Origin: a virus
Reading direction: 5' to 3' (one strand)
IMG/VR virus record: IMGVR_UViG_3300042305_002109
Coordinates: 1-33,058 of that record
Length of the DNA stretch: 33,058 nt
A model generated the notes under the pieces. It had not been told where the DNA came from and did no database searches. It saw nothing but the letters and a program-made list of their open reading frames with translations. The position numbers were made by a program, and so were the translations under genes. Of the stretch, positions 4,471-13,375 are shown in pieces; the stretch's first letter is position 1, and the number at the start of each line of letters is the position of its first letter.

Positions 4471-5670
4471 TTAGGCCGTAACCGTTCCGGCGCGTTTGAA
4501 CCGGATGACGTAACCGTACTCAGGCTTAATCGGCTTGGAACCGTTAGACATAACCGAGCGGAAGTAACCGATCGTTTTGTCCGGATTCAAGACTCGATCC
4601 TGAATATTCAACCATTTGAAGTCACCTTTATAGGCAACTGCGTCGAATTTGGTGTTGCCGCCCGGAGCCGTGATCGGCTTCGGAACCATGCTCACAAACA
4701 CGTCGCGATGGTAGACAATGGCGTCCTCGAACTCTGCTAGCTCGTAAGCCGGATTAACGATCCAGCCGCGAGCGCTAGCCGAGGTGTCCTTGATGAACGG
4801 ATAGACCCGCACCCACTTGTTGCCAGCAGTGTTGCCAGTAACGAAGTTGTACCTCGGAGCGAAGTCGTCAACCATGTGGTAGAAACCACGGAAGCTGCGT
4901 TCGATGCCGAGAGGAGTGAGAAGCTCATTGGCGCGAGTCGAGTAACGGAAGTCGTAACGAACGTTACCGTCGTTGTCGCGAATGAGGTTCATCGAAGCCT
5001 CAGAACCGAGGATGACGCCGAACTCAGGGCGACCATCCGCACGACCGAGAGGATTCAGGCCAGCACCGTCGCGAACGAGGCGCAGGTAAACTTTATCCAA
5101 CTGGGCTTGGGTGAGGGTGGCGGTAGGAGCCGTTTCAGCAATAGTGCTGGCAAACGTCTGTGCGCCGTGGGTGGCAACGCCCTTGTTCTCAGAGAGACGG
5201 ACGTACTCGTTACGATAGCGCTCTTTCCAGCTATAAGCGACGTTCTCAGTGAGGATGTCGAAGATGTTGGAAAGCTGCTCCTTGCGTTTGAAGGAGTAGC
5301 GCAGGTCGTTGATACAGAGCGGAGGACTCTCCAACGCGGTCTGCTTGAGGTTGTAGGTACGCAGGTAATGAGTGAACTCAATGACCGAAGCCTGCGGAAC
5401 GCAGTTCGCCGGATCGTTGACCACCGTATTGAAGGAAACGTCGTTCCACTTCGAGGTGATGTCACCACTGTTGTCAGAGACCGTAGGAAGCGAGCGACCG
5501 TAGGTGAGAACCGAAATGGTCTCGCCCATTTCATCGGGCCACGCTTCTTGTTTGGTCAGTTTGAGCCAGACGCTGGTGTCCAACGTCTTGCGATGGATGT
5601 CAGGGCCGATACGTCCGGCTTCTGCTTCCAGAATACTATTGATTTGATAATTGCTAAAGCTAGCAGGCAT
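4471..5670 (-). CDS. Major capsid protein
   Basis: A 399-residue protein starting MPASFSNYQINSILEAEAGR. The ATG at 5670 was chosen because a perfect Shine-Dalgarno (AAAGGAGG at 5675-5682) lies just upstream; the frame is open further but without a ribosome site. Size, high expression signal and position directly after the scaffold gene, downstream of terminase and portal, identify it as the major head protein. Many Asp, Tyr and Arg residues are interspersed through beta-like segments; the fold is presumably HK97-type but cannot be proven by eye. It is the only structural gene with its own long leader (229 bp) containing an inverted repeat, so it is probably independently boosted. A 325-codon antisense ORF here is a shadow. 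Confidence 0.85.
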   Translation of the reverse strand: MPASFSNYQINSILEAEAGRIGPDIHRKTLDTSVWLKLTKQEAWPDEMGETISVLTYGRSLPTVSDNSGDITSKWNDVSFNTVVNDPANCVPQASVIEFTHYLRTYNLKQTALESPPLCINDLRYSFKRKEQLSNIFDILTENVAYSWKERYRNEYVRLSENKGVATHGAQTFASTIAETAPTATLTQAQLDKVYLRLVRDGAGLNPLGRADGRPEFGVILGSEASMNLIRDNDGNVRYDFRYSTRANELLTPLGIERSFRGFYHMVDDFAPRYNFVTGNTAGNKWVRVYPFIKDTSASARGWIVNPAYELAEFEDAIVYHRDVFVSMVPKPITAPGGNTKFDAVAYKGDFKWLNIQDRVLNPDKTIGYFRSVMSNGSKPIKPEYGYVIRFKRAGTVTA

Positions 5671-9699: not shown

Positions 9700-11460
9700 T
9701 TAAAAAGGCAAGCGCAACTCTTGTTTAGAGAGATTCACAGGCCGGGAGGCGGCGACTCGGTTGAACTTCTCTAGCAGCTTCCGCTTCGTAGCTCGTTGCC
9801 CTCCGAAGTCATCCCCGTAACCTGTTGAATCCGCCGTCATAGCATGACGCTGACGGGCCAAATCCAAAAGGATGAACGCGGCATCTGCTACGTCGGGGGA
9901 CTTCCCTGTGCGCTCTTTCATGTCAGACTTCGGCTCCACCCGGAGACGGAGGCTACCGCTCTTATCTGTAATATAGCGTCGCTCGCACATCTCCCGTGCT
10001 AGCTCCTTGCAGACGCCTCGAATCTGCCCGGTTCGCATCATCTCCTTTGCGGAAAACCAAATCTCAGTGACTCGGTTTCCGTACCGCTCATCAGAAGGCG
10101 TACGGTCAGTAAGTGAAACTGGGAGTTTGCTAGCTCGGCCCCCAAACTGAACTCGCAAAACATCCCGGCTCCACAAAGCATCGACAATGTCACCGAAAGG
10201 GTTTCCGGCTCCTGTGGCGTCGTAAGCGGCATTTCGGGCAGACACCCCTTCCTGCTCGCAACGAGCCCGGAACTGGCGGACGATCTGGTAAGCCCTCGGC
10301 TCCTTCGAAGACACGTCCTCTACGAGGTGCTCATAACGATCGAAGCAAACGGTGCGAAGTTTAGTATTCGCATCGATTCCGACATAGCCAAAGTAAAGGA
10401 TACTTCTGTCGCCGCCGTTGGTGAAAGCAGGGTCGAGTGCAGCAATAGGGGTGGGTGGGGAAAGCCAGAGCGGGGGAGCATCCGCTTGGGTCCGCACAAT
10501 ATCGGCTTCGGCGTAAATACAGTCTTCAGAACCGCTCGGACACCAGAACCCACGAAACATCCGCCAGAAAGCGACTGATTTCTCGCCAAATTTTTGACGG
10601 GCGTCCTCCAACTTGTCTTCCGTAATCATCCACGGATAAACGGTGCGACCCGCTAGGATGTTTGGGCTCTTGATTCCGTCCAAATGGATGCAAATTCCTC
10701 GCTCGGTCTCCCACTCGTCATCGTTGACGGTCACCGTAGCCCACCCATTCTTAGGCTGGGCCAAAAGACCGAACGCGTCGTAGTAAGAGTTGGGGTTTCC
10801 TAGCCCGACCAACTGAAAATACGGGTTCGCCGACAGGTTTGAATAGGCTGCTTGTAGGATCGCTTCCGACAACTCAGGCAACTCGTCCGCGATGAGAAAA
10901 ACCCTCTTCTGCTTCAGACCAATCAACTTGCCAATCGCCTCTTTTTCGCGCTTCCGCTCGGCGGCGACTAGTGTGATCCCCGCTTTATCGGACAAAGCAT
11001 TGCCCTCGGCGTCTTCAAAGCGAATCTGGCCGACTGAATCAACCAGCTTACCGGGAAGCCCCGGAACTGCCTGAAAATATTCTCTGACAGAGCCCCAAAT
11101 ACGTTTTCGTGACTCCTTCAGGGTGGTCGAAGTGACCAAAATCATTGTCTCGGTGGGGGCGCACAGCCAATTCACAATGCTCCAAACCGCAAAAAAATCA
11201 GTTTTTCCCGAGCTAGCGCACCCGGCAACGGCCAGATAGTTTGAACGGCAAGCCCCGTCCAGCATCTGCTCCGCCCACGGATGCCAAGTCCACGGTTTGG
11301 GACTGCCGGGATGCCAAAGAACATTGACAATGTTCCGAAAATGCCCAGCCTTACCGAGACCGCCTTGCTCGACGGTTCTACCATGCCGGAAGCAATAAAG
11401 CTCAATGTTCAGCGCATCTATGCCTTCGGGCCATTCTCGCCCATATCGGGTAATCCCCAT
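9700..11460 (-). CDS. terL: Terminase large subunit
   Basis: A 586-residue DNA-packaging motor that pumps and cuts phage DNA at the portal. The ATPase half shows a P-loop, AGCASSGKTDF, near residue 79-89 and a Walker B VFLIADELPEL with catalytic Glu. The C-terminal nuclease half has an RNase H-like first Asp strand (IAALDPAFTNGGDRS) and a late acidic motif (SPDVADAAFI). Length is ordinary for the family. It starts at ATG 11460, with a small palindrome just upstream, diverges from the integrase and leads the structural operon. No small-terminase gene lies directly upstream; a candidate is found at 27.8-28.6 kb. Confidence 0.93.
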   Translation of the reverse strand: MGITRYGREWPEGIDALNIELYCFRHGRTVEQGGLGKAGHFRNIVNVLWHPGSPKPWTWHPWAEQMLDGACRSNYLAVAGCASSGKTDFFAVWSIVNWLCAPTETMILVTSTTLKESRKRIWGSVREYFQAVPGLPGKLVDSVGQIRFEDAEGNALSDKAGITLVAAERKREKEAIGKLIGLKQKRVFLIADELPELSEAILQAAYSNLSANPYFQLVGLGNPNSYYDAFGLLAQPKNGWATVTVNDDEWETERGICIHLDGIKSPNILAGRTVYPWMITEDKLEDARQKFGEKSVAFWRMFRGFWCPSGSEDCIYAEADIVRTQADAPPLWLSPPTPIAALDPAFTNGGDRSILYFGYVGIDANTKLRTVCFDRYEHLVEDVSSKEPRAYQIVRQFRARCEQEGVSARNAAYDATGAGNPFGDIVDALWSRDVLRVQFGGRASKLPVSLTDRTPSDERYGNRVTEIWFSAKEMMRTGQIRGVCKELAREMCERRYITDKSGSLRLRVEPKSDMKERTGKSPDVADAAFILLDLARQRHAMTADSTGYGDDFGGQRATKRKLLEKFNRVAASRPVNLSKQELRLPF

Positions 11461-11471
11461 GACCGTATGCA

Positions 11472-11482
11472 GGTATCATACC
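11472..11482. promoter_or_regulatory. Palindrome upstream of terminase
   Basis: GGTATCATACC is a perfect 11-bp palindrome around a central base, 12 bp upstream of the terminase ATG on the other strand. It shares the GGTAT...ATACC arms with the motif at 26504-26516 and is probably an operator or promoter element of the late operon. Confidence 0.55.
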
Positions 11483-11529
11483 TCTGTAGACAAGTCAAAC
11501 ATACCTCGACGGACGAAACATCCGTTACA

Positions 11530-11550
11530 GGGGACAACTTCACTGTCCCC
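11530..11550. promoter_or_regulatory. GGGGACA hairpin in the int-terminase gap
   Basis: GGGGACA (11530-11536) and TGTCCCC (11544-11550) form a 7-bp stem with a 7-base loop. Related GTCCCC/GGGGAC words recur at about 11556-11562, 11794-11800 and 11813-11819, on both sides of the candidate attachment site. It could be a terminator for either strand, or paired protein sites; there is no strong T run. Confidence 0.45.
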
Positions 11551-11594
11551 AAAGCGTCCCCATACCCCTTTTTAGAGCACGACAGCATGAATAT

Positions 11595-11781
11595 AAGTTG
11601 TTGTAAATGAACATTTTGCCGGCGTGGCGGAACTGGCAGACGCGACGGACTCAAAACCCTATAAGCGCGGAGCATATACCCACATATACCGCGCAAGTTG
11701 CGGAGAAAGAGCAACTAAACCACAAGGCGAAAATTTTTGATATTTCGCCAGTAATTCGTTTTCAACGACTTACAACAACTT
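11595..11781. other. Candidate phage attachment site attP with inverted arms
   Basis: A perfect 12-bp inverted repeat, AAGTTGTTGTAA at 11595-11606 and TTACAACAACTT at 11770-11781, brackets a 40-bp tRNA-Leu-like segment (11618-11657) just upstream of the integrase. Tyrosine integrases of this type often use a tRNA-derived core flanked by arm-type sites, so this is read as attP. Phage genes lie on both sides, so the element is unsplit and the sequence is the non-integrated form. The two GCATATACC-type words at 11673-11690 lie inside. Exact core boundaries cannot be fixed without the bacterial site. Confidence 0.65.
11618..11657 (+). other. 5' half of a tRNA-Leu (attachment core)
   Basis: The sequence starts GCCGGCGTGGCGG, with a canonical Leu acceptor and D-arm (GGCGGAACTGGCAGACGC), and reaches an anticodon loop CTCAAAA (anticodon CAA). 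After that the anticodon stem fails to close and no 3' half follows within 200 bases. It is therefore a partial tRNA carried as homology for integration into a host leucine tRNA gene. A short ORF reading through it is an artefact. Confidence 0.75.
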
Positions 11782-11793
11782 CGAGTGCAACCC

Positions 11794-11819
11794 GTCCCCC
11801 TATCGCACAAACGGGGGAC
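11794..11819 (+). terminator. Terminator-like hairpin before integrase
   Basis: GTCCCCC (11794-11800) pairs perfectly with GGGGGAC (11813-11819) across a 12-base loop, followed by AATTTTGTTT. The T tract is interrupted, so termination may be partial. It would insulate the integrase from transcription entering through the attachment region, or from the tRNA promoter. Confidence 0.5.
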
Positions 11820-11852
11820 AATTTTGTTTGAACAGATGGTCGCATCTCCTGT

Positions 11853-11860
11853 CATATACC
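11853..11860 (+). promoter_or_regulatory. CATATACC motif before integrase
   Basis: CATATACC ends 12 bases before the preferred integrase ATG (11873). It is one of a set of such motifs upstream of genes in this window. Confidence 0.4.
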
Positions 11861-11872
11861 AGTACCAAGCCA

Positions 11873-13096
11873 ATGAAGACTGACGTGTTATCCTACCCGC
11901 AAACTATACCTACACCGCTGGGTCCGGTGAAAATCTATTGCTGCCGCAACGGTTTCAAAACCGAGTACGTCGTAAACTGGAGCATAGCGAAGCAACGAAA
12001 GCGGGAAAAATTCGCGGATGAACTCAAAGCGCTAAACCGTGCTCAGGAAGTAGCCAAAGACTTGAGCAAAGGGCGCATTGAGAGAACGGCGATCTCACCC
12101 GCAGATATTGCCGAGTTCATGGCGGCTAAACAGCTACTTAGTGGGGGTTCTTTGCTCCGAGCCGCTGAGTTTTTCGTGGAAAGCAACACAGGCCTCGTTC
12201 AGAAAACGGTCAAAGAAGTATGTGAACATCACTTGGCAGAACTCGCCATAGGGAGTAGCGAACGTCACAAAGCCACAACAAAGTGGAGGCACGGGGTTAT
12301 CAACGAGGTCTTTGAAAACCGTATCATTAGCTCAATAACAAGGGACGAAATCATCGACTTCCTTAAAAAGGCGAAATGCCGATCCAAGCAGAAAGCAGGA
12401 GTGGCGATGAGCGGCAAAAGCAAAAACAACCTAGCGAACGCCTTCGGTGCGGTCTGGAACCACGCCCAAACCCGAATGAGCGCCCTACCTAAAAATATGC
12501 CACACGCAGCGACAGAACTACCGACATTCGAGGAATCCCGAGAGAAACGGATATACACACCGGAACAAATGACAGCCATACTCCATTGGTTGGAAGATGA
12601 GGTCACCGCCCATCGCATCCCCAAATGGGTTCTCGCCACCGTAGCAATCAAAGCCTTTACAGGCATTCGAACGGCAGAGATTGAAAGACTTCAGTGGGAA
12701 GACGTGCGTTCCGACGCGGGTACAATCCTCCTCCATAGGGGGCTGACCAAAACTCAGGAGGGACGTATCCTCCCCATCCGACCAGCCCTAAACGAATGGC
12801 TTCAACTTTGCGCGAAGAGGTCGGGCAAGGTAGCAGAAGACCAATTCTTCACGTACACAAAAAAAATCGCCGAAGGCGTGTTCGGCAAAGGGGCTCCGTG
12901 GGAGAAGAACGCTTTGCGTCATAGCTTCATTTCTTACTCAATGGCCGAAACCGGAAACGCGGCTACCACGGCAGACATTAGCGGCAACTCAATCCGGATG
13001 GTTAAAGCCGTTTATCAAACCTTGGCCGTCCCGAGCGATGCTCATAAATACTTCAACATCAAACCGAAAGGAGGTGTAGGTGACCTGCCGTCTTGA
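11873..13096 (+). CDS. int: Tyrosine recombinase / integrase
   Basis: A 407-residue site-specific recombinase expected to insert the phage at a host tRNA-Leu. ATG 11873 is preferred over an in-frame TTG at 11828 because it follows a CATATACC motif. A core-binding domain (about 90-215) precedes the catalytic domain. Visible residues are Arg266 (FTGIRTAEI), the beta-hairpin Lys293 (LTKTQEGR), Arg349 (NALRHSF) and the nucleophile Tyr381 (VKAVYQTL). Both usual histidine positions appear as asparagine: Asn346 in place of the His of HxxR, and Asn372 in place of the later His/Trp (SGNSI). It diverges from the terminase and lies beside attP, as normal. A small hairpin (13088-13111) surrounds its stop. 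Confidence 0.9.
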   Translation: MKTDVLSYPQTIPTPLGPVKIYCCRNGFKTEYVVNWSIAKQRKREKFADELKALNRAQEVAKDLSKGRIERTAISPADIAEFMAAKQLLSGGSLLRAAEFFVESNTGLVQKTVKEVCEHHLAELAIGSSERHKATTKWRHGVINEVFENRIISSITRDEIIDFLKKAKCRSKQKAGVAMSGKSKNNLANAFGAVWNHAQTRMSALPKNMPHAATELPTFEESREKRIYTPEQMTAILHWLEDEVTAHRIPKWVLATVAIKAFTGIRTAEIERLQWEDVRSDAGTILLHRGLTKTQEGRILPIRPALNEWLQLCAKRSGKVAEDQFFTYTKKIAEGVFGKGAPWEKNALRHSFISYSMAETGNAATTADISGNSIRMVKAVYQTLAVPSDAHKYFNIKPKGGVGDLPS

Positions 13097-13111: not shown

Positions 13112-13147
13112 TATGCTAGGTTGCAGACACCAATACCAACCACGACT

Positions 13148-13375
13148 ATGCCTAACCAAATAAGCGCACACACCAAAAGGGTAACCTTTTGCGTAGATAA
13201 AACGGACTACGTAAAATTAGAGCGCCTTGCATCCGAATCCGGATTGAATACTTCGGAACTAATACGCGAAGCGCTGTGGGAATACGTTGTCAAAAACCAA
13301 GACGCCGAGTTTATCCAACTCCGGAGAAGTACCGTCAAAAGTAAGTTTGTCCGGAACCGCTTCAAAAGAAGCTAA
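13148..13375 (+). CDS. Ribbon-helix-helix (CopG/Arc-like) DNA-binding protein
   Basis: 75 residues with the RHH layout: a short beta strand (RVTFCVDKTDYVKLERLA), a turn, then the second helix (TSELIREALWEYVVKN). The tail is basic and ends in Lys/Arg-rich sequence (KSKFVRNRFKRS). Such proteins bind DNA as dimers, often as repressors of phage early genes or as excision/partition factors. The start at ATG 13148 follows a C/A-rich leader without a Shine-Dalgarno; an upstream TTG at 13121 is less likely. It lies between integrase and a second RHH protein, and palindromic operator-like DNA follows at 13477-13494. Confidence 0.8.
   Translation: MPNQISAHTKRVTFCVDKTDYVKLERLASESGLNTSELIREALWEYVVKNQDAEFIQLRRSTVKSKFVRNRFKRS

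Follow-up and report, generated by a model that had tools for sequence, protein, structure and literature searches.

A probable phage attachment site carrying the 5' half of tRNA-Leu(CAA)

Described elements with a tRNA 5' fragment

Among the 3919 islands in Islander, 3760 carry a 3' tRNA fragment and 159 a 5' fragment (PMC4383910), in agreement with the first-pass annotation of the DNA studied here, according to which most tRNA-using phages carry the 3' half. As in the minority of 159/3919 islands, the displaced fragment is the tRNA 5' end in the stretch of 33,058 nucleotides of viral DNA that was analyzed (the window), but the Islander entries are integrated islands in complete genomes, whereas the window contains the probable attP of an unintegrated phage. 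The 5' half is also used by pTN3-like integrases, where the rebuilt tRNA is expressed from the integrase promoter; such use is seldom encountered in bacteria (PMC8371274). Like the window phage, the element pTN3 of Thermococcus uses a tRNA-Leu 5' half (41 bp shared), and the rebuilt tRNA is parted from its original promoter (PMC8371274, PMC5495485), but pTN3 is archaeal, and its attP lies inside the integrase gene, which is split on integration. In the window, the integrase gene stays whole and the tRNA half is located upstream of its reading frame, which sets it apart from the suicidal integrases of the pTN3 type.

Experimental evidence for integration exists for the phage P-SSP7, which was demonstrated to integrate into tRNA-Leu, and likewise for S-TIP37 (PMC8776855). 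P-SSP7, P-SSP2, and P-SSP3 resemble the window in their tyrosine integrase, an attP composed of a tRNA-Leu 5' half that ends after the anticodon loop, and a -10 element 25-26 nt upstream, but they are T7-like podoviruses of cyanobacteria that use tRNA-Leu(TAA) and carry the integrase upstream of the half. Integration into a needed tRNA gene is furthermore common to the tRNA-dependent lysogeny of mycobacteriophages; in that system, recombination at a short core inactivates the tRNA, for which a complete tRNA gene of the phage substitutes (PMC10865867), whereas the 39 bp of the window would restore the tRNA and the window phage is devoid of a tRNA gene. The 5'-fragment class is thus already documented by Islander, P-SSP7, and pTN3, and the attP of the window is a further, well-supported case of this minority class.

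The tRNA half and its flanking sequences

The window is contained in IMG/VR record 3300034063_001075 (positions 18200-51257), and all pieces that were compared are 100% identical. This record of 76,033 bases has a direct terminal repeat of 127 bases and is therefore read as a complete, unintegrated genome. A search of the complete 76-kb parent genome revealed no tRNA gene and no tRNA 3' half, which rules out tRNA-dependent lysogeny of the mycobacteriophage kind. The features of the locus are as follows; conservation refers to L161, the closest distinct relative of the window phage.

9700-11460, minus strand: terminase large subunit gene (terL), left neighbor, divergent from the tRNA half (PHROG terminase large subunit, 4e-09)
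11595-11606, plus strand: left arm-type repeat AAGTTGTTGTAA, member of a perfect 12-bp inverted pair
11618-11656, plus strand: tRNA-Leu(CAA) 5' half, the identity segment common to attP and attB (exact match, 15 host stretches)
11645-11649, plus strand: left core half-site ACGGA (host attB, ACGGA-CTCAAAA-TCCGT)
11650-11656, plus strand: anticodon loop CTCAAAA, 7 bp, putative strand-exchange (overlap) region by analogy with anticodon-loop integrases (PMC8371274)
11657-11661, plus strand: degenerate right half-site CCCTA (host attB counterpart, TCCGT)
11672-11690, plus strand: conserved block GCATATACCCACATATACC with tandem 10-bp CATATACC repeats (19 bp, 100% conserved in L161 amid poorly conserved sequence)
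11760-11771, minus strand: third arm-type repeat with 2 mismatches, tandem to the right copy with a 10-bp period (region conserved in L161)
11770-11781, minus strand: right arm-type repeat TTACAACAACTT, perfect inverse of the left one (region conserved in L161)
11873-13096, plus strand: tyrosine integrase gene, 407 aa from ATG, with a TTG start at 11828 also possible (PHROG integrase, 9e-27; PF00589, 4.5e-08)
13121-13375, plus strand: small ribbon-helix-helix protein (NikA-like/CopG), directly after the integrase (PF01402, 5e-06)

The segment at 11618-11656, GCCGGCGTGGCGGAACTGGCAGACGCGACGGACTCAAAA, matches tRNA-Leu(CAA) exactly over 39 nt, which span base 1 through the final position of the anticodon loop. 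Host genomes were searched for an identical gene, as the first-pass annotation had proposed, and a scan with one genome per species retrieved 15 exact copies, each within an intact tRNA-Leu(CAA) gene; 11 of these are labeled Verrucomicrobiota (Chthoniobacter, Chthoniobacterales, subdivision 6, and uncultured Verrucomicrobia), and the remaining four bear other labels. The identity between phage and host ends on the right with the anticodon loop in all 15 host stretches and begins on the left with tRNA base 1, one Clostridia genome sharing one base more. Judged by these exact edges, the part of the tRNA that the phage retains starts at base 1 and stops where the anticodon loop ends. The annotation had extended the identity to 11657; the 5' half through the anticodon loop proved to be exact, but position 11657 itself is a mismatch (C in the phage, T in all of the host tRNAs examined), and the end of the segment was accordingly moved to 11656. 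ARAGORN detected no whole or intron-split tRNA at the segment and Rfam no tRNA or intron match, which, together with the negative search for a 3' half, rules out a whole or split tRNA.

The tRNA half is located between terL and the tyrosine integrase gene, and the ribbon-helix-helix protein that follows the latter is a candidate excision factor or regulator. The plus-strand RNA of 11657-11830, which connects the tRNA half with the integrase gene, has a better fold than shuffled sequences (z -3.05) and contains several hairpins, e.g., GGCGAAA...TTTCGCC and a C-run/G-run hairpin at 11793-11820. Searches for relatives in the phage database provided just short tRNA-like matches for the window and none for L161.

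With respect to the core, the loop CTCAAAA flanked by ACGGA and TCCGT would be the natural strand-exchange region. It is flanked on both sides by arm-type copies, i.e., three 12-mers of which two are perfectly inverse and one is tandem, as in attP sites of the lambda type. A perfect 12-bp inverted repeat of any sequence occurred in 8 of 2000 dinucleotide shuffles of the 412 bp at 11461-11872, whereas a family of three similar 12-mers appeared in 14 of 60 and is by itself not unusual; the case for arm sites therefore draws its strength from the perfect inverse pair and from conservation. L161 conserves the tandem right-arm block (TCAACGA, TTAC, and ACAA), but the left repeat is not conserved at the same place, and the inverted pair is off-center relative to the presumed crossover (about 43 bp on the left, about 113 bp on the right). 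The earlier proposal that the 12-bp inverted repeat looks like integrase arm sites has thus gained support from the tandem third copy and the region's conservation in L161. Moreover, the block at 11672-11690 is a candidate binding site of the integrase arm type or for an excision factor, and on its right side, the core is accompanied by tandem repeats of two types that are reminiscent of integrase arm sites and of sites for excision factors.

The relative L161 and further 5'-half loci

L161 (IMGVR 3300033064_002981) shares the gene order of the window phage, and its proteins are 89% (terL) and 66% (integrase, over 400 aa) identical. It carries GTCGGCGTGGTGGAATGGCAGACACATCGGACTTAAAA, the 5' half of tRNA-Leu(TAA), at the same place where the window has its CAA half (L161 positions 4783-4820, minus strand), and the first-pass annotation's caveat that the tRNA-like segment might be unconserved among relatives is thereby answered. 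This half is one base off the host gene (T for C at acceptor stem position 2), with 36 contiguous identical nucleotides. Host tRNA-Leu(TAA) genes at this distance of one base are present in 3 of 384 Verrucomicrobiae genomes (G004, G005, and G364), and in two of them, G004 and G005, the CAA half of the window has an exact counterpart as well. Since both halves match host tRNAs, the segment is maintained as a match to the host while the particular tRNA changes, which would not be expected of a relic or a coincidence. A phage lineage can accordingly switch leucine isoacceptors yet keep the 5'-half layout. Both phages independently point to the same host lineage, which, going by the majority of the 15 exact matches and by the TAA half of L161, is probably a freshwater lineage of Verrucomicrobiota close to Chthoniobacterales. 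The comparison thus offers a tRNA-based host assignment for an uncultured group of 76-kb phages.

The leucine-CAA 5' pattern was found in 58 viral stretches, 8 of which form no whole tRNA. Two of these eight represent the window phage, three (L112, L117, and L122) belong to one phage group with a T7-like RNA polymerase gene next door, and L130, L139, and L152 are single cases, the last being ambiguous since it retains more of the tRNA. An integrase gene is located close to the tRNA half in all six stretches from L112 to L152, and in L117, L122, L130, L139, and L152 it is of the tyrosine type. Among the Verrucomicrobiae matches whose loci were classified, three are copies of the fragment type (G068, G112, and G340). 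G112 is the clearest host case of an integrated 5'-half element: its truncated copy retains the native, orthologous promoter region, in common with L049, L050, L052, and L053, whereas the intact copy, which is located on a separate contig, has unrelated upstream DNA with a divergent integrase frame directly beside it. In G068, a half and a whole tRNA-Leu(CAA) enclose an element of 12.3 kb that carries genes for an integrase, a terminase, and a primase-like protein. A clean comparison with an empty site failed, because the tRNA is inverted relative to its flanks in the relative G018 and the synteny is rearranged, and G068 therefore served just as an example of an island between a half and a whole tRNA. 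Native genomes hence document 5'-half integration that moves a tRNA gene off its own promoter, which makes the source of host tRNA transcription in a lysogen directly testable.

The G068 island (L097; G068:C61:139000-153500) is satellite-like, with an integrase, small and large terminase subunits, and a primase-like protein. In the Verrucomicrobiota genome G340, just a truncated 5' part of tRNA-Leu(CAA) is present (L057; G340:C43:10079-13111), and neither an intact copy nor an integrase was found. The synteny of G005 with G004 and G364 starts at the 5' end of tRNA-Leu(TAA), preceded by an integrase gene; a fragment copy of tRNA-Leu(TAA) was not found in G005. G103 and G130 were rejected as fragment cases, as their second copies are intact tRNAs. 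The integrases of the window and G068 are 22% identical, and other integrases align mainly at the catalytic motifs, which suggests that the 5'-half habit extends beyond any single close lineage of integrases.

Proposed integration and the candidate promoter of the rebuilt tRNA

Taken together, the site is very probably an attP through which a phage that is temperate, or can at least integrate, makes use of the 5' half of tRNA-Leu. The exact fragment, its 5' nature, and the adjacent integrase place it among the tRNA-targeting tyrosine-integrase sites of the 5'-fragment class, and the corresponding claim of the first-pass annotation stands on the exact edges, the integrase, the isoacceptor switch in L161, and naturally occurring integrations of the 5'-half type in the same class of bacteria. 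The segment could alternatively be what is left of a degraded phage-encoded tRNA-Leu, or belong to a split or intron-containing tRNA, and have no role in integration. Phages often carry tRNA genes, and in 50 of the 58 viral stretches, the leucine-CAA 5' pattern is part of an intact tRNA, but the edges of the segment fall exactly on base 1 and the loop end without decay, the corresponding site of L161 is occupied by a clean 5' half of a different isoacceptor, the complete genome lacks a 3' half or any tRNA, Rfam reports neither tRNA nor intron, and other half-only copies adjoin integrases, so that this origin is highly improbable. It is less remote, albeit unlikely, that the attP belongs to a phage whose integration is rare or transient and gives no stable lysogens. 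T7-like cyanophages are reported to behave in this way: integration of S-TIP37 takes place in a small fraction of the cells that it infects, and no stable lysogens were detected (PMC8776855). In line with such a lifestyle, and at odds with the expectation of prophages bounded by tRNA-Leu(CAA), no lysogen of the window phage was detected among 213 genomes of the order Chthoniobacterales, where the best integrase match is 36% identical and the terL matches are short and distant; elements bounded by a 5' fragment and an intact tRNA were seen for others, in G112 and G068. Absence from collections of metagenome-assembled genomes is weak evidence, though, and the open integrase frame with its similarity to that of L161, the conserved core and right arm region, and a tRNA half that tracks a real host tRNA in both phages argue against such a lifestyle.

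For the preferred reading as a functional attP, integration, arm binding, and promoter activity are inferred, whereas the two-junction outcome of any crossover within 11618-11656 is topology, not hypothesis. At one junction, the host promoter would be followed by the truncated tRNA 5' half and the integrase gene. At the other, the phage DNA of the terL side (to 11617), 11618-11656, and TCCGTTTCCC would form a complete tRNA-Leu, with its 5' end from the phage and its 3' half from the host. The tRNA sequence would be restored, but its upstream region would now be phage DNA, which must supply the promoter, while the native promoter of the host tRNA would now precede the integrase gene. In the window phage and L161, the integrase is downstream of the half tRNA, whereas P-SSP7, L117, L122, L130, L139, L152, G068, G112, and G005 have it upstream, next to the rebuilt tRNA; this orientation is the sole feature that sets the two phages apart among the 5'-half cases placed. 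Because of this position, the integrase would follow the host tRNA promoter in a lysogen. A promoter exchange, with the integrase under the native tRNA-Leu promoter behind a truncated-tRNA 5' leader and the tRNA under a phage promoter, could couple integrase expression and excision to host growth, a scenario that we regard as rather doubtful.

The candidate replacement promoter, for which the first-pass annotation had pointed to TATAAG, comprises the following elements.

11569-11574, plus strand: weak TTTTTA, candidate -35, with a 17-bp spacer to TATAAG
11592-11597, plus strand: TATAAG, candidate -10 of the replacement tRNA promoter, starting 26 nt before tRNA base 1 (position-specific p about 0.02; overall score p 0.23)

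The position of TATAAG fits, but the combined -35/-10 score is no better than chance relative to shuffles, and the upstream TG is 2 nt away instead of 1 nt as in a true extended -10. The position-specific value for a 5-of-6 match at exactly 25-26 nt is indicative only, as this distance was chosen post hoc and the weights are E. coli-like. A sigma-70 consensus scan of 11450-11900 returned nothing at its threshold. A replacement promoter at TATAAG is thus plausible, albeit weak by itself. It is a real possibility, though one we lean against, that the phage has no dedicated promoter, and that either the host tolerates the loss by having UUG codons read by the TAA isoacceptor or transcription enters from elsewhere in the phage. 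Apart from the score of the window, this would be consistent with L117, L139, G112, and G068, in which no promoter match was found at such a position; L161 has no counterpart of TATAAG. The position-specific match speaks against it, as do strong promoters 25 nt ahead of the tRNA half in P-SSP7 (TTGTTA-16-TATAAT with TG) and L130 (TTGACT-18-TACAAT) and, in P-SSP2 and P-SSP3, a TATAAT at a distance of 26 nt. In the P-SSP7 sequence (L159, 5840-5903), the consensus extended -10 ahead of the attP tRNA half reads TGTTATAAT.
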